DNA of 31,414 nt, taken from a virus. The position numbers were made by a program, and so were the translations under genes. Positions 1,050 to 15,948 of this stretch are shown here, one piece after another. Below the pieces are notes generated by a model. It ran no database searches, had not been told where the DNA came from, and saw only the letters and a list, made by a program, of their open reading frames with translations. Each line of letters starts with the position of its first letter. The stretch's first letter is position 1. Location of the stretch: IMG/VR virus record IMGVR_UViG_3300023179_000341, positions 1 through 31,414 of that record. One strand, written 5' to 3'.

Positions 1050-1507
1050 TTTTTTAGCAAATTCACATCACCAAGGGTCTTTTGCTTTCCTTGAAGCGCA
1101 GTGAAGATTTCTGGAAGGATATCTGAGGCCGCAAGAGAGAGCATGATGTCATCCGAAACAAGTCCATCAGCGCCTTTTTTCATCTCGCTGACATCACCCG
1201 TAAGGATATCCTTGATTGCCACGCGAACCTGAGCAAACATCAGGCTGTAAATCGGCATTTCACCAGTCGATTGTGCCTTCATTGCGATTCCTGCCATCGA
1301 ATCCTTGGCGGAAAGAACATCTTTTACCTTGGAACTTAAAGACAAAACAAAGCGTGTTGGTTGAACTTCTGGATTGAGGTCCAAAATCTGCTCATCAAGA
1401 CTTTCAAGATACTTCGCATAATCTTCGTTTGAGCAACGAACAGCGTCATCCTTCGATGAGATGAATTTGAAAGACAAGTCTTGCGGGCTTGCAAACTTCA
1501 GGGCCAT
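1043..1507 (-). CDS. Tail assembly chaperone, short form (G-like)
   Basis: This is a 154-residue protein starting MALKFASPQDLSF. ATG at 1507 was chosen because AAAGGAGA precedes it at ideal spacing; the frame is open further up to 1579 but that stretch crosses the terminator hairpin. The protein is helical and acidic, of the size and position of lambda gpG-type chaperones, between tail tube and tape measure. It ends LLKKS at a TAA within a run of eight A residues (on the coding strand), which is the frameshift site. No specific family was recognised from residues alone; the call rests on synteny and the frameshift arrangement. Confidence 0.8.
   Translation of the reverse strand: MALKFASPQDLSFKFISSKDDAVRCSNEDYAKYLESLDEQILDLNPEVQPTRFVLSLSSKVKDVLSAKDSMAGIAMKAQSTGEMPIYSLMFAQVRVAIKDILTGDVSEMKKGADGLVSDDIMLSLAASDILPEIFTALQGKQKTLGDVNLLKKS
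1047..1055 (-). promoter_or_regulatory. Programmed -1 ribosomal frameshift site (A AAA AAA G)
   Basis: On the coding strand the end of the short chaperone reads CTA AAA AAA AGC TAA. Eight consecutive A residues form an A AAA AAA slippery heptamer. Slipping back by one base enters a frame with no stop for 145 codons, ending just before the tape measure gene. This matches the arrangement known for G/GT tail chaperones in many long-tailed phages. No strong downstream stem was identified. Confidence 0.8.
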
Positions 1508-1546
1508 AAAATCTCCTTTCCTGGGGGATTCCGACCAATTTAGAGC

Positions 1547-1576
1547 AAAAAAAGAACCCCCGCAATGCAGGGGTTC
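1547..1576 (-). terminator. Rho-independent terminator after tail tube gene
   Basis: On the minus strand a perfect 7-bp stem GAACCCC/GGGGTTC with a 9-base loop is followed by seven T residues. It lies between the tail tube stop (1602) and the chaperone start (1507). It should reduce downstream transcription so that the abundant tube protein is made in excess over chaperone and tape measure. Confidence 0.85.
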
Positions 1577-1601
1577 CACCGTTCTTTGGAGATCTCTATG
1601 A

Positions 1602-2840
1602 TCAGGCGTATTTTACCACGATCTCGTCAGCCGCGTCGAGTGCCTGCTGATAAGCCTTGCCTTCAAACGTGACAGGGATTGAACCATTTTCTGGAACCGA
1701 GATCGAAGGAACCTGGAAGATTGCCTTCGGAATGTCGATTTCCAGGTGGCGTCCGGCAGCGTCACCGAGTTTGAAGTTCAGGTCTTGAGCCTCGAACTGT
1801 TGAACAGCGTTGTAGAAGGCCACCGTGTCTTTGTTGAGGTTCAATTCAATCGAAACGTCAACTTCGAGGCGGCTTGCAGGAACGAAAATCGCTCCGTAAG
1901 CAGCATCAGTGCCCCAGCAGTAGTTCACAATCTCATGGCCGTTTGTCACGGTGATTGTTGCGCTACGAACGCAAGGCATTCCAGGAATGCTTGCCGAGGT
2001 GAATGTACCAACAAGGCCAGTTTGTGGGTTGTCGATGCCTTCTGCTCCGGTCATCACTGGCTCATAGTAGGACAGATAGATTGGAGTTCCAGAGCCATCA
2101 GCGTCAGCCAAAGCCGCGCCGTCGAGAGTGATAACGTCGCCCGTGACAGAGACGACCTTACGAGCAGAGCCGGAGGGTGTATCAGCCGAACGGGTTGTTC
2201 CGTCAGCCTCGACCAACATCACGAAAGAACCGACAGGGAATTGCTTTCCTTCGCCGGCCTGCAAGGTAACGGTTTGGCCTCCGTCGTTATCAACGGTCGA
2301 TTTGCCAATGCCGACCAAGTAGCTTTCAACGCCCATTCCGGACCAGTTGAGCTGTGATTGTCCGTCGCCTGGCAGGGAAATCTCACACGCATCCACAAAA
2401 AGCCCCCGGGACATTTTGCACCATTTATCGCCCACTTCGAACATGGTGAAAGTAATCGAAGGATCTTCAGAAGAATCGTATTGAACTTCAGCAGGAATGC
2501 TTTCCTTGCCGAGCAGCGACTTCCAAAGGACGCGCAAGCCACCTTCAAGTTCAGCAACACCCTGAGCAGCAGCAGTGTCAATGTTGACCATCGTGGGCAA
2601 CGACCACTCAAGGGCTTTCTTTTCCTTGATTGTGTTGTTGTTATGGCGACCGGAGCGGTGAGGAGACGAGTTGATGGGTTGACTGAAGTTGATTGAACCA
2701 CCCGAAAGGGCAAAGAAGTAATCAGCAGCGGCAGGAACAACCATGGTTCCGCGTGTTCCCTCTTGCTTGATGAAGAAACGCTGATTCAAAGACGAGCTGT
2801 CACCTGTACTGGCATAAATTGAGGCATAATTCTTTGCCAT
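1602..2840 (-). CDS. Major tail tube protein
   Basis: This 412-residue protein forms the stacked rings of the tail tube. It begins MAKNYASIYAST and has a beta-rich composition. Features include an FFIKQEG...GTMVVP segment near the N-terminus, a central region rich in Gly, Asp and Thr (about residues 190-270) that could be an inserted surface domain, and a C-terminal half with ASRLEVDVSIELNLNKDTVAFYNAVQQF and IPVTFEGKAYQQ, typical of tube proteins. A GGAAGGAT ribosome site lies upstream of the ATG. It sits between the tail terminator and the chaperone and is followed by a strong terminator, as expected for a highly expressed structural gene. Confidence 0.85.
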   Translation of the reverse strand: MAKNYASIYASTGDSSSLNQRFFIKQEGTRGTMVVPAAADYFFALSGGSINFSQPINSSPHRSGRHNNNTIKEKKALEWSLPTMVNIDTAAAQGVAELEGGLRVLWKSLLGKESIPAEVQYDSSEDPSITFTMFEVGDKWCKMSRGLFVDACEISLPGDGQSQLNWSGMGVESYLVGIGKSTVDNDGGQTVTLQAGEGKQFPVGSFVMLVEADGTTRSADTPSGSARKVVSVTGDVITLDGAALADADGSGTPIYLSYYEPVMTGAEGIDNPQTGLVGTFTSASIPGMPCVRSATITVTNGHEIVNYCWGTDAAYGAIFVPASRLEVDVSIELNLNKDTVAFYNAVQQFEAQDLNFKLGDAAGRHLEIDIPKAIFQVPSISVPENGSIPVTFEGKAYQQALDAADEIVVKYA

Positions 2841-2906
2841 TTTCTAATCCTTCCATGAACCTGAATATTCGCCACTCAATCCTTGAGATGGTTGTATAAA
2901 ACGACT

Positions 2907-3347
2907 TTAACATACATCGACGTACTTTTTCCGGTACTGAACACTGAAAAGCAGGGTCGTCGTATAGAACGGCCTGACCAAGTTCAGATCGGGTGTATTC
3001 TGAAGGTACAATACATGAATCACACCCGGTATCCCAAGATTAGGGATGGCTCCAATGACCTGTTCAACTTCTTGGCGCTTGTCCAGAAGTGTTCTCATGT
3101 TCACGGTCGATGTTGAACTGCCCTTGAGGGCGATCTCCACGGCAATTTGCCAATCAACGAGGATTTCGCCTCTTTGGTGGGTGAAAGATTGTCCGTTGTC
3201 ATAGATTTGGATGTAAGGAATTTCATGGTCATGGACCTCTGAGAATTCGAGTTTGATATTCTCACTCTCGACCTTTTTGACCCAGGCCAGTGTCTTGATC
3301 CGGTTCTCAATCGCGTCGAGAATTGTTGAGTCATTGGCGACTGGCAT
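2907..3347 (-). CDS. Tail terminator / tail completion protein
   Basis: This 146-residue protein starts MPVANDSTILDAIENRIK. ATG at 3347 was chosen over an in-frame TTG at 3353 because GAGGAAA lies 9 bases upstream. The pattern of an N-terminal helix, then alternating strands (PYIQIYDNGQSF, VDWQIAVEIALKG) and a long helix (MRTLLDKRQEVEQVIGAI) matches the tail-terminator fold of the lambda gpU / HK97 gp10-neighbour type. It overlaps the gp10-like gene by 17 bases, so the two are probably translationally coupled. It lies directly before the tail tube gene, the usual place. Exact family assignment is by fold pattern and synteny. Confidence 0.7.
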   Translation of the reverse strand: MPVANDSTILDAIENRIKTLAWVKKVESENIKLEFSEVHDHEIPYIQIYDNGQSFTHQRGEILVDWQIAVEIALKGSSTSTVNMRTLLDKRQEVEQVIGAIPNLGIPGVIHVLYLQNTPDLNLVRPFYTTTLLFSVQYRKKYVDVC

Positions 3348-3813
3348 TATCAATTTCCTCGCGCAACATCTGGATTATGGTTTTCTCGTTTTCTTCAACC
3401 GCTGGACGGACGAAAGGTCTTTCCTTCAAGCGACCAGTTTTCTTGTCAAAGACACCCTTTGAGGGTCGACCAATTCTTCCAAGTCTTTCGTAATTCTTCA
3501 ATATCATGCCGAGAATCTTGTTTGGACTTGTGCCCTTGAGATTCTTTGTTCCGTATTCATGGAAGCGGGCATAAAAAACACCATAAACACCTGCTTCAAC
3601 TATCGTTTTGCCGCCAAGTGTTCTGATTTTATAGCTGATACTGTTTACGGTTTTACTTGAATCCTTGATGTCTTGACGGATGGCGTTGATTTTCATTTGT
3701 CCCGCAAGGAACATCCCGATGCGATGGCCTGCCTTGTCGAATGTTTCCCGTGAAACAAATGCATCAAGACGACGCTCAAGAAGCTCTATGCGTTTAAACT
3801 CAACTTGTGCCAT
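3331..3813 (-). CDS. HK97 gp10-like head-tail joining protein
   Basis: This 160-residue protein (MAQVEFKRIELLERRL...) carries the hallmark of the gp10/minor-capsid completion family: GVYGVFYARFHEYGTKNLKG, followed by a basic linker and a C-terminal PFVRPAVEENEKTI. In this family the YxxxxEyGT segment and the late RPFxRPA motif are conserved. It helps join head and tail. The start ATG shares one base with the stop of the gp6-like gene (TGATG), so translation is coupled. Confidence 0.85.
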   Translation of the reverse strand: MAQVEFKRIELLERRLDAFVSRETFDKAGHRIGMFLAGQMKINAIRQDIKDSSKTVNSISYKIRTLGGKTIVEAGVYGVFYARFHEYGTKNLKGTSPNKILGMILKNYERLGRIGRPSKGVFDKKTGRLKERPFVRPAVEENEKTIIQMLREEIDNASRQ

Positions 3814-4436
3814 CAGCTATTGCCCACCGAGGATGGGGTCAACGGCGCATCCAGGCGACGATGCGGTTCAAGAAGTTCGACAACTTCCGGCGGCATACCC
3901 TGAGAGAAGCTGATAGTCTCCTGATTCTTCCCTTTGCCCTTGACGCCGAGCCTTCTGTCAGCCCGCATTTGATACATCCATTCGACGAGCAGTAAGCAGG
4001 CGTGTTGCAGATCTGCCGGCAGGTTTGGACCCGCACCAGGAGATACAACACTCTTATATCCTGCATTGTATGTGACCTTGATATTGAGGTTTGCTCGCAT
4101 GAAGCGTCCGTACCGAAGCACGACAACGCCCGCATCTTCAATATCGTATTGAGCAGGATCGTATGGAGTCAAAAAATCCCATGCGGGATCGTCATAAAGT
4201 GATGTCGGTTTTTCGGCAGGGTATTGTTTGAGCATGATTCTGTCTGAACTTCTGCCATCCTGACGTTCAGTATGTGCTTGATAAATCAACTTTCTATCAA
4301 GGTGACGCTCAATACGCTCGCTTGCCGTATTGATATAGAGTTCGAGTTTTGCATCTTGGCTGACATCTGCACTTGAAATGTCCAAGTGTACTTTTGCAGT
4401 AGCGACCGTGACCAAAGCATTAGAGTTCAGGGTCAT
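3813..4436 (-). CDS. gp6-like head-tail connector
   Basis: This 207-residue protein forms the connector ring below the portal. It begins MTLNSNALVTVATAKVHLDIS, followed by a helix (DAKLELYINTASERIERHLDRKL), a beta-hairpin region (SDRIMLKQYPAEKPTSLYDD, VVLRYGRFMRANLNIKVTYNAGYK) and a C-terminal helix (PADLQHACLLLVEWMYQMRADRRLG). This is the layout of HK97 gp6 / SPP1 gp15-type connectors, including the NIKVTYNAGY motif that precedes the last helix. It overlaps the upstream 83-residue gene by 17 bases. Confidence 0.85.
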   Translation of the reverse strand: MTLNSNALVTVATAKVHLDISSADVSQDAKLELYINTASERIERHLDRKLIYQAHTERQDGRSSDRIMLKQYPAEKPTSLYDDPAWDFLTPYDPAQYDIEDAGVVVLRYGRFMRANLNIKVTYNAGYKSVVSPGAGPNLPADLQHACLLLVEWMYQMRADRRLGVKGKGKNQETISFSQGMPPEVVELLEPHRRLDAPLTPSSVGNS

Positions 4437-5536: not shown

Positions 5537-8386
5537 TCAGTATTCAAACTCATAGACCGGCTGGAAGGCAATCTCTGTTGCAGAGATAGCACGTCCAACG
5601 CAGTACACCGAGTTTCCTGACTCAAAGCCAGTCAGCACTTGAACCACTTCACCAGCGGTTTTGGAGACAAAGCACTTCTTGCCTGGAACAAGCCCAGAGA
5701 AGCCGCCGACAACGGTTCCTTCCTTGATAACAACCTTGCCAGAAGCGCCGGAAGCGATGCTTGCAGCAGCGATGACCAAGGCAGCGTCGCTCATATCCAA
5801 GTCAGCATCAGCGAGGTCGATGTTGCCATTGGGCTTGATATAGCAGATCTTGCCAGCAGAGATTGCAGCGTCGGCAGTCTTGCTGATGAGGTTGAGTTCA
5901 GAAACGACAACTTCCAGAGCGTCGATTTCGCCTTGAAGCGCCAACTCAGCAGCAGCCGCACGAACCTCTTCGGCATCCACTTCAGCTTGAACCGCTGCAA
6001 CGGCTGCGGCTCTGTCCAAAAGCTCTTGAGCAAGGTCAGCTTCAACCGCATCAATCTCGCCTTGCAACGCTGTGTCGGCAGCCGCCCTGTCGAGAAGCTC
6101 TTGTGCCAGGTCACCGGCAACGGCGTCGATATTGCCTTGAAGAGTTGTATCAGCAGCAGCTCTATCTAGGAGTTCCTGAGCCAAATCAGCTTCAACAGCG
6201 TCCACTTCGCCTTGCAGTGCAAGTTCAGCAGCTTCAGCGCGTGATTGTTCAGCAGAAACAGCGGCAGCGCGGTCGAGGATTTCTTGGGCCAAGTCTGCCT
6301 CAACGGCATCAACTTCACCCTGAAGTGCGGCTTCAGCGGCCTCAGCACGACCTTTTTCGACCAACACAGCAGCGTCAGCATAGGCTTGAGCATCGAGCTG
6401 AGCCTTGGCAACCGAACCAGCGCCAGAGCCTTCGATAACATCTAGGCGTGTGTCGAGAGCGCCTTCAGCAGCAAGAGCGCGAGTCTCTTCAGCGGCGATG
6501 TCGCCTTCAAGTGCAGTGACGGCAGAAGCTCTTGCGAGTTCTTCAGCGTCAACTTCAGCCTGAACAGCAGCGATGGAGTTCGTGATTGTGACAGCGAAGT
6601 TTCCATCAGCACCGAGCGCGTCAGAAAGCTCTTTCAACGTGTCAAGGATTGCAGGAGCGCCGTTTACAAGGTCTGCAACCTTCTGGTCGGCATACGCTTG
6701 AGCAGAAGACAATGTGCTTGCATCGCCACTTGAGCGAGCAGATTGTTCAGCAGAGATTGCCGCATCAAGTTGTGCTTTCGAGACGGCATCTTGCGCATCA
6801 ACTGCGTCAGCAATGTTCTTGACTGCCATCGACGAAACATCGAGCTGGCGACCTGTGAGCTTAATCTTACCGCGAACGCCTGTTCCGGTGGTTTCAGCGG
6901 TCGTGATGTTGATGTCACCGCCGTTGACGTTTGGTTGCAATCCGTAGCTATCGGATTCAACGAAAATCGAACGCCCTGTCGATGCGGCAGCATAAGCATT
7001 GCCCATCGAGATGACGTACAGGTCAGAGTCAGTTGACGAGAACACATACGAGAATGTGTACAGGTACTGCTTGCCCAGGTCACCGATGCTGCGCTCGTTG
7101 GACTTGTGTGGGACAGTGCTTGAAACGTAAACGACGTTTCCGCCATCAGAAGATGTCAGGTTCGACGCTTGTCTTGGAGCAGAGTCGTCATCAAGGTCGC
7201 AGTAAGCCGAAGGGCCATTGACCGACAAAGCGTTGAAGTTGAAGTTCTTGGCAAACACGGACACGCGACGGTTGAAGTCGTTTGTCGATGCCGTCAATGT
7301 TGCTGTTCCACCGCAATATCCACCAGAAGCGTTCAGGATTGTCGCCATTCCACCATTTGGATGCTGGTTGAGGACGATGTTTCCAAAGTGGATGTTGTTC
7401 ACATGCAAGCCGACGTTGATGCCGCTGACCGTGAAGGAGGAATAGAACAAGCAAGAATGGAACTGCGCTTGAGCAATGGCGTTGTTGTGGCCATACAGCG
7501 TGACTGCGCTGTTGAAAGTGACTTGGTTGAAGTACAGCTTTCCAGCAGGCGACGTGACTGTTTGCCAGTTGAAATCGCAAGCACCAATCAGAACGACGTT
7601 TGTGAATCCAGAACGGCAATCGTTTGCTGCTGCCTGGTTGAAGTCAGAAGCCATTGTGAAGCTGCTTGCCGTGATTCGTACCGCATCTCTGACAGCACCA
7701 ACGACGAACACGTTCGCTTTAAGAGCAACAGCTCCGGCTTCGGCATAGCTACCAGCGTGCATCAAAACGACGTAGCGTTTCGTTGGAGTCGCATCAGTGA
7801 TGGATGCCAAAGCAGCGGTCAGGCTTGCAAATGGCTTGTGCTGACCACCGTTTCCGGTTGAGTCATTGCCGGATTTGGAAACCCAAACAACCTGCGCGTC
7901 TTTGAGGTCTTGCAAGGTTGTGATTGAGGTTTGGAGCGCAGTGTCTCCTGCTTGGCGGTCAAGAATCTCTTGAGCCAGGTCGGATTGCAGTTCGGAAATG
8001 TCTCCGCCAAGTCCACCAGAAGCAGAAAGGATTTCTGCGTCGGTGTATGCCTTTGCGTCAACCAATGTGGAAGCGTCACCAGCGGCGCGGTCAAGCAATT
8101 CTTGAGCAAGAGCGGCTTCCACTGCGTCAACTTCTGCCTGCACTGGAGCAACAGCGCCAGAAGCGGCTGAATCTGCATATCCTTTGGATGCAAGGTCAGA
8201 AGAATCAACCGGAGCGCCGACGTTGGTGATAACTGCTCCGCCGATGTCGAGCTTTCCGCCAACTTCTTTGATGTCAGCAAGCGAGCCGATGGCCAACTTG
8301 CCGAGCTTGAGTTCCATGGTCTGGGATTCGACACGCTTTTGCTTCGTGCCATCCCAGTGAATCAACTGAAAATTCTGCGTGGCCAT
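5537..8386 (-). CDS. Long repetitive fibre protein (tail or head fibre)
   Basis: A 949-residue protein with AGGAGG 8 bases before its ATG. N-terminal part: MATQNFQLIHWDGTKQKRVE, a short attachment-like region. It then has a first coiled-coil block, a beta-helix-like region (about residues 165-480, with KSGNDSTGNGGQHKPFASLTAAL, typical of pectate-lyase-like fibres), and a long second coiled-coil block rich in Ala, Glu and Asp with six copies of a LAQE(L/I)LDR(A/Q)A motif and ALQGEVDAVE units. It ends in a beta domain (SAGKICYIKPNGNIDLAD to the C-terminal VYEFEY) that resembles the end of the 415-residue neighbour. No obvious catalytic residues were seen. Its location beside the capsid gene leaves open a capsid-attached fibre instead of a tail fibre. 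Confidence 0.8.
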   Translation of the reverse strand: MATQNFQLIHWDGTKQKRVESQTMELKLGKLAIGSLADIKEVGGKLDIGGAVITNVGAPVDSSDLASKGYADSAASGAVAPVQAEVDAVEAALAQELLDRAAGDASTLVDAKAYTDAEILSASGGLGGDISELQSDLAQEILDRQAGDTALQTSITTLQDLKDAQVVWVSKSGNDSTGNGGQHKPFASLTAALASITDATPTKRYVVLMHAGSYAEAGAVALKANVFVVGAVRDAVRITASSFTMASDFNQAAANDCRSGFTNVVLIGACDFNWQTVTSPAGKLYFNQVTFNSAVTLYGHNNAIAQAQFHSCLFYSSFTVSGINVGLHVNNIHFGNIVLNQHPNGGMATILNASGGYCGGTATLTASTNDFNRRVSVFAKNFNFNALSVNGPSAYCDLDDDSAPRQASNLTSSDGGNVVYVSSTVPHKSNERSIGDLGKQYLYTFSYVFSSTDSDLYVISMGNAYAAASTGRSIFVESDSYGLQPNVNGGDINITTAETTGTGVRGKIKLTGRQLDVSSMAVKNIADAVDAQDAVSKAQLDAAISAEQSARSSGDASTLSSAQAYADQKVADLVNGAPAILDTLKELSDALGADGNFAVTITNSIAAVQAEVDAEELARASAVTALEGDIAAEETRALAAEGALDTRLDVIEGSGAGSVAKAQLDAQAYADAAVLVEKGRAEAAEAALQGEVDAVEADLAQEILDRAAAVSAEQSRAEAAELALQGEVDAVEADLAQELLDRAAADTTLQGNIDAVAGDLAQELLDRAAADTALQGEIDAVEADLAQELLDRAAAVAAVQAEVDAEEVRAAAAELALQGEIDALEVVVSELNLISKTADAAISAGKICYIKPNGNIDLADADLDMSDAALVIAAASIASGASGKVVIKEGTVVGGFSGLVPGKKCFVSKTAGEVVQVLTGFESGNSVYCVGRAISATEIAFQPVYEFEY

Positions 8387-11325: not shown

Positions 11326-12453
11326 TTATTCTGCCAATGCCTTGAGGCGTTTTTGATACTCAGACACCATTGCGTCTATTTTTTGCTCCATTTCAGGCTT
11401 TGGCGCTGGCTGTGAACCAGCCAGGGCTTCCGTTACCTTGATGAGCATTTCCATCTTAGCATTAAGGCTGCCAAGCATTTCAAGCTGAGACTGCATAATC
11501 ATCAGCATTGGGTTCTCGTTGACCAATTCCTTGACGCCGCCTTCGCTGTCGCATCCTTCACAAACGGACTTCTGCTCCTGCTTGCACATATCGTAAGCTA
11601 TCGCAGCCGCCTGATCTTGAGCGTACCCTTCTTTAATGAGTTTTGGGATCTTCTTGGAGACACACTCTTGGACTGCTGGGTCTTCAGCTTTTTGTTCTGG
11701 TTCTGGCTTTGACTTGGACTCAGCTTCAACGTCCTTGCCGTTAAGAACTTCAAGTTCCTGCGCGTCGCACCCAAGAACATCAACGCAAGCCGAAAGGACA
11801 GATTCCGATACCGGCGTAACATTGCCCGCCAGAACTTCGCTCAGCTCAGCGTCAGACAAGCCTGCCTTCTCCATGAGGCTTTCCATGAGTTCGACTTTCT
11901 CTGCGCCCATGTCTTCGACCAGCTTATCCATGTGACCTTGAATGTACTGAGCGACCATTGCGCCCTTTGCCTTCAACACGTCCATACGGAAATCCTTCAA
12001 TGACTTATAGTTTGACAAAGAGAACGTGGAATCCGGCTGCGCAGGAATACTGACAATCGACAATTCTTGAAGTTCCCAATCCTTGATGAGCTTACCACCA
12101 GTTTCCGGATCAGTCTCAACCGTCTCATCTGCAAATCTGACAGAAAACGTGCAAAGCGTCCCGTCCTTCACAAGTTCACGGATATAAGACACCTTCTCAT
12201 GATCGACCCCTGACACTGCCGCTTTGACATAAAGACCGTCTTCCTTTGGAACGACCTCAACAACGCGACCGATGGGATAATTCATGTCATGGTTGAAAAG
12301 CAGGATAGGGTTTTTCTTATACCTGTCGAGCTTCACCGACATCGGGTCCATGCGCTCATTATAGGCATCCTTTGCGAAATAGTTCGCATACCCCTCAATC
12401 ACAACGTCGTTTTCGTTTGGCTTTGCGCCAAGAGCCTTGAAGCGATAGTTCAT
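11326..12453 (-). CDS. Prohead maturation protease (peptidase S78 type)
   Basis: A 375-residue serine protease that cleaves capsid scaffolding during head maturation. The catalytic domain is in the first 150 residues: VIEGYANYFAKDAYNERMDP, the catalytic His in LLFNHDMNYPIGRVVEV, the catalytic Ser in GTLCTFSVRFADE, and ELQELSIVSIPAQPDSTF near its end. These are the HK97 gp4-type motifs. The C-terminal 220 residues are an acidic extension with Cys pairs and a helix segment (ECVSKKIPKLIKEGYAQDQAAAIAYDMC) seen in other phage structural proteins; it may act as a built-in scaffold. The start ATG overlaps the portal stop by one base (TAATG), so the two are coupled. Confidence 0.93.
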   Translation of the reverse strand: MNYRFKALGAKPNENDVVIEGYANYFAKDAYNERMDPMSVKLDRYKKNPILLFNHDMNYPIGRVVEVVPKEDGLYVKAAVSGVDHEKVSYIRELVKDGTLCTFSVRFADETVETDPETGGKLIKDWELQELSIVSIPAQPDSTFSLSNYKSLKDFRMDVLKAKGAMVAQYIQGHMDKLVEDMGAEKVELMESLMEKAGLSDAELSEVLAGNVTPVSESVLSACVDVLGCDAQELEVLNGKDVEAESKSKPEPEQKAEDPAVQECVSKKIPKLIKEGYAQDQAAAIAYDMCKQEQKSVCEGCDSEGGVKELVNENPMLMIMQSQLEMLGSLNAKMEMLIKVTEALAGSQPAPKPEMEQKIDAMVSEYQKRLKALAE

Positions 12454-15400
12454 TATTTCTTCTCCACAAGTTCAAGGAGCTGTTGTCTTGTTGCTTCCGC
12501 ATCCTGCGGGAAAATAGGTATCATCGTGCAACGGCAGTTGTGACTCACTATTCCTTCTGCTAGGTAAACTCCAGATTTTGTCTGGAGATTATAGACATGA
12601 CAATTAAGTACAACGACACTGACGTTAATAACTGGATCGATTGTTACATCAACCAATCCATGAGCATGAAACAAATCTCTGACTCTTTCGGTGTCGCAAG
12701 AACCGCCATCCATCATCACTTTAGCAAACGCGGAATCAAAATCAGAAACTCCAGAGAAGCCGAGCTTCTCAAGTGGAGCAGAATGACTCCTGAGCAAAGA
12801 AGGAATCAAGTTGCTGCCTGTCATGCTGCTACCACCGGAAAGCCCGCTTCCAGGCATCGGCTCGCCTTGGCTGCACAAACCAAGCGCACCACTCATAGCA
12901 ACATCGGTGTCGGCGAGGCTCTTGTTTACGGATACTTGCTCAAGGTCGGATTCGACGCTCACATGCAATTCCCCGTTGAGGCATACAATATCGATATCGC
13001 TTGCAGCTCCGTCGCCGTGGAAATCTCCAATACAACCGTTCACGCTCATAATTGTTCTAGGTTGAGAAAAAGAGTCGAATACCTGATGGAATGCGGTTGG
13101 CATTACCTTCATGTCGTTATTGCTAAAAGCCCCATCACTGATGACTGCCTTCAACAGATTGCTTCCTTTTGTGATTTTTCCAGCAGGAATCCATCCATCT
13201 GTCGTCAATATCGGGTGATTAGGGGTAACGGTGATCTCAGAGCCGCTGGCTGCTTTAATAACGACAGCTTCTCCTTGATAAAATCTCCGATAGACCTTCT
13301 CGGCGTTTATTGCTGAGACTTTTGTTTCACCAATAAAACAATTCACACACTCTTGTGCAGAGCCACGCGGATCACGTGGATAGCTCAAGCCGTTGCTGAA
13401 ATCCTCGTCATGGTTCTTTGTCTCACCGTGAAGAACAACATGGTTTGCCGAGTCGGTTGGCTTTGTCCCACGCACGTCTTCATCCGCCATCGTAGCCCAA
13501 ATCTTTTTAAGATCAGGAATGGCCTTTGCCACTGTACGCATCATTGACGCCTGACCCATTGAAATCGCCGTCAGTGTCTCGGTGCGGGCAATCCGCCGCG
13601 CTCTCTCTGCCGCTCTGTCCGTGAAGTAACCTTGGATGCCCTCAATCACCTGTGGGATTGATTGGCCTTCTTTCAGCCCATCTAAGACCACTTGCATGAC
13701 TTGCTTGGTGGTTGTCTCATTGATTGAATCAAACGAAGCCTTGCCCCTGTCTCGCAGCAATTTGAGCCTATCACCTTCGTCTATCATAATCGCTACCAAA
13801 ATAGTCTCTCTCGATGGACCGTCCATGACCGTTCCGGCTTGCATCCGATACCCTTCCTCAACGGTTGGGCCGAGGATCTTGTTGTATCGCTCAAGGTATT
13901 CTTTTTCGAGGCGTGCAAGCTCCTCCTCGATCATCTGCTTGAACCGCTCATCGTCATCGCTCTTTGCGCGATAGACCTCGTTGGCAGATCTGATGGCAAT
14001 TTTTGCAGCCTCAGTGAAAAGGTCGAGTGACCAAAGGACCATCTCAGGCTCAGGCTTTTTGGAAGCCTCTTCCATGCCGTCTGAAAGTGCCTTCACGCTT
14101 GCTTCGTTGTCATCAAGTTCATCTATGCGGTCCATCCGTGAAACAAGGCGCTCGGCCCAATCACGTCCTTCATCGCCACCCCAAAGAAGATGGGCAATGT
14201 ATCCGTTCGATGGCGGGTCTTTCTGCTCAAGATTATCATGTTGATGGCGGGCAAAGAACGAGCGCATCCTGCGTACCGTATCAGGCGACAGGTTCTCCCT
14301 GTTCTTGAGCTGCACCGCGCGGGCCACACCCACCGACGTGCCACCGCGACCAAACTCTTCCCTGAGCTTCAGGCCACGCTCAGCGTTCTGAGCCATCGCC
14401 TGAGTGGGTGTGAAGTCGATCATATCGTACGCACCGCGCATCTGGGGTGCTTCAGGTTCGGGAAGGCTCTTGGCTTCCGTGACAGCAGGGGAGATGTTTG
14501 GTGTTTCAGGCTGTGTCTGGAGAACTTCGGGGTTGACTTGGATGGCCTGAAGCACTGGTGGTTTCGATCCGGGGATGGCATCGCCGCCCTTCACCGGAGG
14601 GAGCTGCCACAAAGCCGCTCTCACTTCGTTGAGTGTGTGGACCTGAAGCATCTGGATGGACAACGCTGCCTTGGCATCGAGGTTCTCTTGAAGCGCCATA
14701 ACGCCCGAATAGTCGAAGCGCAGCTCCTCATTCGTACCTAAAAGTTTCATTTCTCGGAAATACTTGGACATCGAAGATGCAATGGCATCGCCGGTCGGCC
14801 TGACCGCTGACTCCCAGAAATATCTGAGCGCCATCTTGGCCTCTTCCGAACCGAGCGAGCCTGCGGATTGCAAACCAACAACATGCTTTGGGATATGAAG
14901 CACGTTGAGGATCGTCTCTCGGTTGAGATTGATCAGATCCACAAGCTGTTGGTCTGCAATCTTGTTGTCAGCCGACGTAGCGCTCACGCCTTTAGGGAGT
15001 AGCATGGTGCGACGTTGGTTGCGCCTGCCTGTATAAGCCTGTTCCATCGACTTGAGCAAGCGTTGGGCACTCATTTCATTCGCTTCACGGTCAAGCGAGA
15101 GGATGAACTGTGGGGTCGCGCCCTTGAGATAGAAAGCATTGAGATAGTCTTGACTGTAACGGTTGAACAGCAGCGATTTCCTGCCTGGCACAAACGGCGA
15201 AAGACCATAAAACACCGACGCGGGGTTTGGCCTCTTGATGTGGCATATTTCTGTAATCTTATACGAAATCGGTTTGATGGCCTCAGAGATTGTTTCATCA
15301 ATCCCTGAAGTCACGAGATAGTTCTTCGGCAGGCCGTTCTCGAAATGATACGACACCCGCTCAAAGCCAACAGGGATCATGGTGCTTGATTTTGGCGCAT

Positions 15401-15800
15401 AGAAGAAAAACGCATTCCCGCCCAAGATATAATCCGAGATGATCGAGTAAAGAAACTGCGATTCATCTTGGTATTCATTCGGATTCTGTAACATTTGGTT
15501 CAGCTTGTGGCGCTCTGAAACAGGTTTCCACGCATCGGTGTTATTCTCCGTGTCTTCACGGGCGAACACACGCAACGGGACTGTGGAAAGCGGCTGCGCG
15601 TAAGCATCCACCGTGATGTAAACCCAGTCCTCGCCAAAGAACAAACTCTTGAGCGTGCGGGCATCCATCATCGCCTTGGTTTCGGCTGACCATGAACCGA
15701 AATCACTTTCGTCCCAATCAGTCGGCTCAACGCTTTTCAGTGGGCTTATCTTCGCTCGCTTTCCTGACAATTGTGGCGCTTTCAACTTTTTCTTCACCAT
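12453..15800 (-). CDS. Portal-MuF fusion protein interrupted by an intein
   Basis: The primary product is 1115 residues; after splicing it would be 847. ATG at 15800 was chosen because GAGG lies 6 bases upstream; the frame continues to a TTG at 15821 without a better signal. Residues 1-430 are an HK97-type portal (YITVDAYAQPLSTVPLRVF, NAFYLKGATPQFILSL, HIPKHVVGLQSAGSLGSEEAKMALRYFWESAVRP). A middle domain has GRGGTSVGVARAVQLKNRENLS and YIAHLLWGGDEGRDWAE. The C-terminal part is a MuF/SPP1 gp7-like domain (RRIARTETLTAISMGQ, WATMADEDVRGTKPTDSANHVVLHGE). The final MuF motif is split: ECVN lies before the intein (residues 821-1088) and CRCTMIPIFP after it. Portal and MuF are usually separate genes; this fusion guarantees a 1:1 ratio. 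Confidence 0.92.
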   Translation of the reverse strand: MVKKKLKAPQLSGKRAKISPLKSVEPTDWDESDFGSWSAETKAMMDARTLKSLFFGEDWVYITVDAYAQPLSTVPLRVFAREDTENNTDAWKPVSERHKLNQMLQNPNEYQDESQFLYSIISDYILGGNAFFFYAPKSSTMIPVGFERVSYHFENGLPKNYLVTSGIDETISEAIKPISYKITEICHIKRPNPASVFYGLSPFVPGRKSLLFNRYSQDYLNAFYLKGATPQFILSLDREANEMSAQRLLKSMEQAYTGRRNQRRTMLLPKGVSATSADNKIADQQLVDLINLNRETILNVLHIPKHVVGLQSAGSLGSEEAKMALRYFWESAVRPTGDAIASSMSKYFREMKLLGTNEELRFDYSGVMALQENLDAKAALSIQMLQVHTLNEVRAALWQLPPVKGGDAIPGSKPPVLQAIQVNPEVLQTQPETPNISPAVTEAKSLPEPEAPQMRGAYDMIDFTPTQAMAQNAERGLKLREEFGRGGTSVGVARAVQLKNRENLSPDTVRRMRSFFARHQHDNLEQKDPPSNGYIAHLLWGGDEGRDWAERLVSRMDRIDELDDNEASVKALSDGMEEASKKPEPEMVLWSLDLFTEAAKIAIRSANEVYRAKSDDDERFKQMIEEELARLEKEYLERYNKILGPTVEEGYRMQAGTVMDGPSRETILVAIMIDEGDRLKLLRDRGKASFDSINETTTKQVMQVVLDGLKEGQSIPQVIEGIQGYFTDRAAERARRIARTETLTAISMGQASMMRTVAKAIPDLKKIWATMADEDVRGTKPTDSANHVVLHGETKNHDEDFSNGLSYPRDPRGSAQECVNCFIGETKVSAINAEKVYRRFYQGEAVVIKAASGSEITVTPNHPILTTDGWIPAGKITKGSNLLKAVISDGAFSNNDMKVMPTAFHQVFDSFSQPRTIMSVNGCIGDFHGDGAASDIDIVCLNGELHVSVESDLEQVSVNKSLADTDVAMSGALGLCSQGEPMPGSGLSGGSSMTGSNLIPSLLRSHSAPLEKLGFSGVSDFDSAFAKVMMDGGSCDTERVRDLFHAHGLVDVTIDPVINVSVVVLNCHVYNLQTKSGVYLAEGIVSHNCRCTMIPIFPQDAEATRQQLLELVEKK
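12571..12587 (+). promoter_or_regulatory. Hairpin and ribosome binding site of the antisense endonuclease
   Basis: On the plus strand GGAG at 12584-12587 lies 9 bases before the ATG at 12597, supporting translation. The sequence CCAGATTTTGTCTGG (12571-12585) is a perfect 5-bp inverted repeat that would pair the first bases of the ribosome site, possibly keeping expression low. On the other strand these bases encode the block F region of the intein. No convincing sigma70 promoter was seen upstream. Confidence 0.5.
12597..13316 (+). CDS. EDxHD/Vsr-like homing endonuclease encoded antisense within the intein
   Basis: A 239-residue protein on the plus strand, lying entirely inside the intein-coding DNA. 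Residues 7-50 form a helix-turn-helix (MSMKQISDSFGVARTAIHHHF, ending KRGIKIRN). Residues 63-85 are a basic linker (MTPEQRRNQVAACHAATTGK). Residues 102-175 match the very-short-patch-repair-like nuclease fold of EDxHD homing enzymes: GE (Glu107), FPVEAYNIDIA (Asp133), VAVEI (Glu142), VHAH (His149, His151) and RVEYLMECGWHYLHVVI. The end has QYRVIRGNGDL, a motif I associate with this enzyme class. These enzymes cut intein-free alleles and start homing. A GGAG site lies at good spacing. Each codon aligns exactly with an antisense intein codon (endonuclease residue k opposite intein residue 249-k). Confidence is high that it is a real gene, because its motifs are specific. Confidence 0.85.
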   Translation: MTIKYNDTDVNNWIDCYINQSMSMKQISDSFGVARTAIHHHFSKRGIKIRNSREAELLKWSRMTPEQRRNQVAACHAATTGKPASRHRLALAAQTKRTTHSNIGVGEALVYGYLLKVGFDAHMQFPVEAYNIDIACSSVAVEISNTTVHAHNCSRLRKRVEYLMECGWHYLHVVIAKSPITDDCLQQIASFCDFSSRNPSICRQYRVIRGNGDLRAAGCFNNDSFSLIKSPIDLLGVYC

Positions 15801-15948
15801 TGTTGACCTCGACAACTCCAAGTCTTTCTATCTTCATATCCTTTGGCGCATCGAGAACAAGACGCGCACCACGGGTCGCCGAAACCAGCAACACATGGCT
15901 CCCTATCTTCACCGCCTCGCCTTTTTTCAATTCAACAACCAACGCCAT
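15727..15948 (-). CDS. CsrA-like translational regulator
   Basis: A 73-residue protein: MALVVELKKGEAVKIGSHV, then TRGARLVLDAPKDMKIERLG and a charged tail. The spacing and residues match CsrA/RsmA proteins, which have a KxGExxxIG motif in strand 1-2 and a (R/K)LxxDAPKDxxIxR segment ahead of strand 5. CsrA dimers bind GGA motifs in mRNA leaders. The residues after the core diverge and the tail is longer than usual. The gene lies between terminase and portal, overlapping the extended portal frame, so it is expressed with late genes. Its target, phage or host, cannot be told. AGGAT precedes the ATG. Similarity is judged by eye. Confidence 0.7.
   Translation of the reverse strand: MALVVELKKGEAVKIGSHVLLVSATRGARLVLDAPKDMKIERLGVVEVNNGEEKVESATIVRKASEDKPTEKR

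Follow-up and report, generated by a model that had tools for sequence, protein, structure and literature searches.

A phage intein with a predicted homing endonuclease gene on its opposite strand, in codon-for-codon overlap with the intein frame

Results

Layout of the locus

The DNA analysed here, 31,414 bases long, comes from a virus record in IMG/VR, and we call this whole stretch the window. Its minus strand holds a gene in which a portal protein is fused to a MuF head domain and which is interrupted by an intein. Within the intein, the plus strand carries a second complete reading frame, the product of which is a predicted endonuclease. The two strands contain the following features:

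12453–15821, minus: host gene, portal protein + MuF head domain fusion, intein-interrupted, 1122 aa
12537–13340, minus: intein, 268 aa, Cys1 to Asn268 (Pfam Intein_splicing, E 7e-8)
13140–13340, minus: N-terminal splicing part, residues 1–67, with Cys1, the TPNHPILT block B and the invariant H42
12699–12962, minus: intein middle, residues 127–214, without a confident fold, antisense shadow of the nuclease
12537–12668, minus: C-terminal splicing part, residues 225–268, with the HVYNLQT block F and the HN terminus, followed by the +1 Cys in the extein
12584–12587, plus: Shine-Dalgarno GGAG, antisense of intein codons Leu252-Gln253, 9 nt upstream of the ATG
12597–12599, plus: ATG start codon, antisense of the CAT codon of the block F His248
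12597–13316, plus: endonuclease gene, 239 aa, complete from ATG to stop, antisense and in register with the intein codons
12615–12746, plus: predicted helix-turn-helix DNA-binding domain, residues 7–50 (helices 7–18, 24–31, 35–44)
12900–13202, plus: Vsr-like nuclease domain, residues 102–202, from structural matches
12915–12917, plus: invariant Glu107 (55/55; GAG 28, GAA 27)
12984–12995, plus: YNID, with the invariant Y130, N131 and D133 (55/55)
13011–13022, plus: VAVE, nuclease residues 139–142, antisense of intein FHGD (107–110), both almost invariant

The original prediction had placed a 268-residue intein in the MuF part of the portal gene, and fully inside it a 239-residue plus-strand frame with a GGAG ribosome site; all of these coordinates proved exact. 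The host gene matches the Pfam families Phage_portal (E 9e-43), Phage_Mu_F (E 9e-7) and Intein_splicing (E 1e-6), and its PHROG match is portal and head morphogenesis. The intein is located between ...QECVN and CRCTMIP... (VN / CRC) and shows the marks of a class 1 intein, namely C1, T39-H42, N268 and the +1 Cys. When it was aligned with 54 relatives, all 55 sequences matched Pfam Intein_splicing, and C1, T39, N41, H42, T46 and G49 were found to be invariant. The structural model of the intein contains a Hint fold and matches the Mtu RecA intein with Z 12.5, with 106 residues superposed at an rmsd of 1.9. Its ends are predicted confidently, with pLDDT values of 92–98 for residues 1–60 and of 93–97 from residue 231 onward, and values below 50 are seen at residues 127–174 and 180–214. 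A Pfam search with the window intein gave the splicing domain alone and no nuclease match in the sense middle. A canonical bifunctional intein, with the nuclease in the intein's own frame, was ruled out because the sense middle is disordered and devoid of a Pfam nuclease.

The antisense frame encodes a Vsr-like protein

The two frames pair codon for codon, with intein position 3 opposite nuclease position 1. The AlphaFold model of the plus-strand protein reaches a mean pLDDT of 91.1 and a pTM of 0.74. Its N-terminal domain is predicted to be a helix-turn-helix (HTH), supported by HTH fold matches and by Pfam matches to UPF0122 and other HTH families. With Foldseek on its own, the nuclease model had no significant match, and we ranked the structural matches by VIA re-alignment. 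The top entries are the catalytic domain of I-Bth0305I (3r3p, Z 9.5; rmsd 3.0 over 91 residues), the E. coli Vsr protein (1vsr, Z 9.4) and 3hrl (Z 9.3). A separate PDB search with the nuclease family profile agrees with this ranking, giving the Vsr-like entry 3hrl at E 4e-6. In Pfam, the window nuclease matches MTES_1575 at E 3e-5, which is below the Pfam cut-off, and 25 of the 55 family members match it at E <= 0.01.

The plus-strand protein had been proposed to be an EDxHD/Vsr-like endonuclease with an HTH. The Pfam, PDB profile and fold matches to Vsr and I-Bth0305I bear out the Vsr-like fold together with the HTH, but the EDxHD motif is not conserved in full. The sole invariant columns in the 55 sequences are M1, E107, Y130, N131, D133, A140 and E142; E107 and D133 are thus present throughout, and a conserved H-D pair is absent from the alignment. 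Because the His-Asp part is unconserved, we file the nuclease as Vsr/MTES_1575-like and not as a proven EDxHD member.

Intein codons serve the antisense gene

The block F His, whose codon reads as the start codon on the other strand, is present in 73 of 92 dereplicated loci. There it is written as CAT in 62 of the 73 cases, compared to 33.6 expected from each locus's own genes (z 7.2). Additionally, the predicted pairing of the upstream region with the anti-Shine-Dalgarno sequence is -6.3 kcal/mol, compared to -3.0 kcal/mol after synonymous resampling (92 loci; Wilcoxon p 8e-13). Splicing codons of the intein are, by these codon statistics, co-opted as the start codon and the ribosome site of the putative enzyme.

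A second kind of sharing is seen at VAVE. Its codons are fixed (GCC 53/55, GTG 53/55, GAA 55/55), and therefore the FHGD of the intein is nearly invariant as well. The conserved nuclease residues R50 and E107 are written with several codons in the 55 sequences, so that the intein residue opposite to them is free. The invariance of FHGD goes further than the nuclease frame alone would demand, and the motif seems to be needed by the intein as well. A scan for plus-strand promoters gave 4 sites, none of them convincing, compared to 1.9 +/- 1.5 in shuffled sequences. At the stop codon of the nuclease (13314–13316), the plus strand has a terminator-like hairpin (13298–13318), which was not kept in the twelve relatives that we folded.

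The layout is widespread

A tblastn search found a nuclease homologue in 125 phage records, and in the phage and plasmid records examined it always lies antisense within a head/MuF gene. In all of the 26 relatives first compared, the nuclease lies within the intein as an in-register antisense gene. They comprise phages of Salmonella, Escherichia, Klebsiella, Cronobacter, Pseudomonas, Vibrio, Edwardsiella, Haemophilus, Helicobacter, Gordonia and Mycobacterium, IMG/VR contigs, and a Chloroflexota and a Streptomyces plasmid. The full nuclease alignment has no stretch of 7–10 columns conserved enough for a profile search of IMG/VR and GTDB; the wider search was hence performed with a DNA pattern of the active site, in which any codon was allowed and which contained no intein information. 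This pattern gave at least 119 loci in IMG/VR. Among the matches listed, 116 have the nuclease, and in every one of these 116 it is in-register antisense to an intein. The other three loci, L060, L077 and L141, have no match to the nuclease profile and were taken as chance. In the prokaryotic genomes of GTDB, 40 loci have a match of any strength to this profile; 39 of them, with strong matches, lie inside an intein and antisense to it, and the fortieth is a weak match (E 0.002). In the reverse search, performed with the intein block B pattern alone, 80 of the 83 loci that were new to the analysis proved to have an antisense nuclease. The tblastn, IMG/VR, GTDB and block B searches turned up no free-standing gene of this Vsr-like family. 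The layout had been treated as a single case; the antisense intein nuclease is instead a widespread class with hundreds of related loci.

Two further observations concern where these elements sit. Locus L030 has a 1335-codon ORF with two antisense nuclease ORFs (233–904 and 1100–4276, minus), which suggests two such putative inteins in one gene. In L024 (Escherichia phage Ec1-ASingh), L012 (Sejanus) and L004, the same intein class occupies head-gene sites besides N/CRC, for example STT/CRARDG; several sites have therefore been colonised.

Mobility

Intein-free alleles were searched with the MuF gene of Sedona from which the intein had been removed. The joined Sedona flanks align without interruption (480/480 bp) to at least 60 records of Gordonia phages, which are empty alleles. 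The empty allele of the window itself is known only from distant MuF proteins that are 35–44% identical. The Salmonella phage BPS11Q3 and the Escherichia phage Snoke share intein DNA that is 95% identical, with MuF flanks at only 69–80%. The opposite is seen in the Gordonia phages Angelicage and Sedona, whose MuF flanks are 92–95% identical and whose inteins differ (67% DNA identity). Empty sites and the apparent transfer of the intein between diverged phages indicate homing.

We regard it as very probable that the window contains a mobile intein with its endonuclease gene on the opposite strand, in codon-for-codon overlap, and that this enzyme cuts intein-free MuF genes, into which the element is copied by repair. 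Translation of the sense strand would give a portal-MuF precursor, the intein ends would form the Hint domain and splice out, and the middle would largely be filler. Antisense translation, starting at the reversed block F His codon behind the antisense ribosome site, would give a separate HTH and Vsr-like nuclease. Given the empty sites and the horizontal transfer, this product would cleave the insertion site in MuF alleles that lack the intein, and the element would be copied in as the cut is repaired.

Decayed copies are also expected from homing cycles, and L049 is apparently one. It has a stop codon within the antisense nuclease (6893–6895) with the intein frame open, and its FHGD motif reads LHGD. 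The window element could likewise be decaying, with an intein that still splices and a nuclease that is already inactive. We consider this unlikely, since the window keeps all family-invariant residues and a full-length frame with start codon and ribosome site, and since its antisense omega compared to L001 is 0.32 [0.23–0.44]. For this value, each codon pair of the in-register overlap was scored exactly as synonymous or not in each frame, and antisense omega is the ratio NN/SN.

Slightly less likely still is a real nuclease with a role besides homing, for example in the exclusion of rival phages or in antisense-RNA regulation of MuF. Vsr-like nucleases are generally known to vary in role, transcription of the gene would run counter to that of a structural gene, and computational analysis does not indicate the cleavage site. 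However, the nuclease is confined to an intein at every family locus found, a homing endonuclease is among its best fold matches, and the empty alleles, the intein transfer and the swapping of inteins at one site all speak for homing; an exclusion role and homing would, moreover, be compatible with each other.

Selection on the two frames

Pooled over seven pairs, antisense omega is 0.32 [0.28–0.37] in the central overlap, compared to 0.94–0.98 in the exteins and 0.87 in those parts of the intein that the nuclease does not cover. The omega of the intein frame goes up to 0.69 in the same central overlap. In the stretch shared by the nuclease and the N-terminal splicing part, constraint is seen on both frames, with omega values of 0.29 and 0.25. 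The positions of the differences follow the same trend. In 76 disjoint pairs of homologues, 5858, 3804 and 7716 differences fall on nuclease codon positions 1, 2 and 3, and position 3 varies above position 1 in 75 of the 76 pairs. The wobble position therefore switches to the antisense frame inside the nuclease and returns in the exteins. From omega and the codon-position counts it follows that the intein middle is mostly a shadow of the nuclease, while the ends are truly dual-coding. The mild central value of 0.69, together with the invariant FHGD, leads us to believe that a part of the middle may have a function of its own. Within the compared sequences, these patterns show two selected coding frames on opposite strands. 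Homologues with both frames open and purifying selection on the plus strand, which the original prediction called for, were accordingly found.

A chance origin of the antisense ORF, as a mere shadow of the conserved intein frame, is very hard to believe: although in-register frames of this relation are often open and inherit sense similarity, and although the ORF lies opposite to the annotated strand and was uncalled by annotators in the records examined, a shadow predicts an overlap omega near 1 and not 0.32, the position-specific divergence switches frame only inside the nuclease, the antisense translation folds Vsr-like with the sense middle disordered, and R50 and E107 are conserved in spite of their codon variety. 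Sequence motifs had been put forward against chance from the beginning; YNID and VAVE are indeed conserved, whereas VHAH is no family motif.

Other inteins with overlapping nuclease frames

In the Gordonia phages Thing3 and Barsten, the same MuF site (VIN/CRC) is occupied by an unrelated intein:

L148:2372–3196 (Thing3) and L149:2375–3199 (Barsten): unrelated intein
L148:2486–3073, minus: Thing3 antisense endonuclease, 196 aa, in register

The antisense protein of these two phages is related to free-standing LAGLIDADG nucleases and weakly to I-MsoI. Intein-frame differences between Thing3 and Barsten at positions 1/2/3 number 51/6/16 in the overlap vs 4/1/26 in the N-extein, a shift from which we conclude that their antisense frame is selected too. 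With this LAGLIDADG case, the antisense layout must have arisen at least twice. The inteins of L228, L253 and L258 furthermore hold a DUF559/Vsr-like nuclease that is read in the +1 frame of the sense strand (Pfam E 3e-12, 2e-6 and 1e-11). At least some of these three inteins seem to lie in helicase-like genes. Vsr-like antisense, LAGLIDADG antisense and DUF559/Vsr-like +1 nucleases, taken together, mean that overlapping-frame nucleases arose several times. We infer that, once an intein splices, any of its frames that remains open can accommodate a nuclease gene.

Discussion

Taken together, we consider it probable that an endonuclease in an overlapping frame is a general architecture of inteins and one that evolved repeatedly, represented by the TPNHPxLTxxGW class with a Vsr-like antisense nuclease, by the LAGLIDADG antisense type and by the DUF559/Vsr-like +1 type. 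It would include the co-opting of splicing codons and, at VAVE/FHGD, dual-coded motifs that are selected in both frames. One stretch of DNA can accordingly carry two putatively functional proteins on opposite strands over more than 200 codons, in very many phages and with selection measurable for each frame, making these inteins a strong natural system for the evolution of overlapping genes. The way in which inteins are taken to carry their nuclease would have to be revised, to a model in which the enzyme is separate, antisense and possibly separately timed. The nucleases are unannotated in the public records examined, and the layout implies that many phage inteins seemingly without an endonuclease are full mobile elements.

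The original prediction knew of no intein endonuclease encoded on the opposite strand. Our full-text literature searches likewise found no intein with an antisense, opposite-strand or overlapping-frame endonuclease; a 2025 preprint on "non-canonical" phage inteins may describe part of it. With canonical inteins of the PI-SceI and PhoVMA type, the element shares the Hint domain, the N- and C-terminal blocks with a nuclease between them, the conserved site in a conserved gene and the horizontal spread. In those inteins, however, the nuclease belongs to the same polypeptide and the same frame, whereas here it would be a separate protein from the opposite strand that has a start, a stop and a ribosome site to itself. 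The catalytic fold is shared with the EDxHD enzyme I-Bth0305I and with Vsr/MTES_1575-like nucleases, and the E..YNxD..VAVE core is invariant here. Different from these enzymes, the full EDxHD motif is unconserved, the HTH domains are N-terminal and the gene is antisense inside inteins.

In fractured genes, split inteins are accompanied by a free-standing Vsr-like/EDxHD nuclease. The same broad nuclease class is thereby found beside intein coding, but the gene lies between the intein halves, while here the intein is contiguous and the gene overlaps it in antisense. The ShiLan insertion, a non-intein phage insertion with a hidden out-of-frame HNH nuclease (PMC11855218), likewise keeps the host frame open as filler and has its homing nuclease in another frame. 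That nuclease differs in that it is an HNH enzyme in the third frame of the same strand, without a splicing domain or a detectable ribosome site.

Finally, antisense homing endonuclease genes occur in nuclear group I introns, such as I-DsqI of Didymium (PMC9548176). These introns have in common with the present inteins that the homing endonuclease lies opposite to its splicing element and needs expression signals of its own. What splices in them is an RNA that has no coding frame, and a peripheral loop holds the nuclease gene (PMC9548176). Unlike in these introns, the other strand must here stay an open protein frame for more than 200 codons, and the codons are shared between the two genes.
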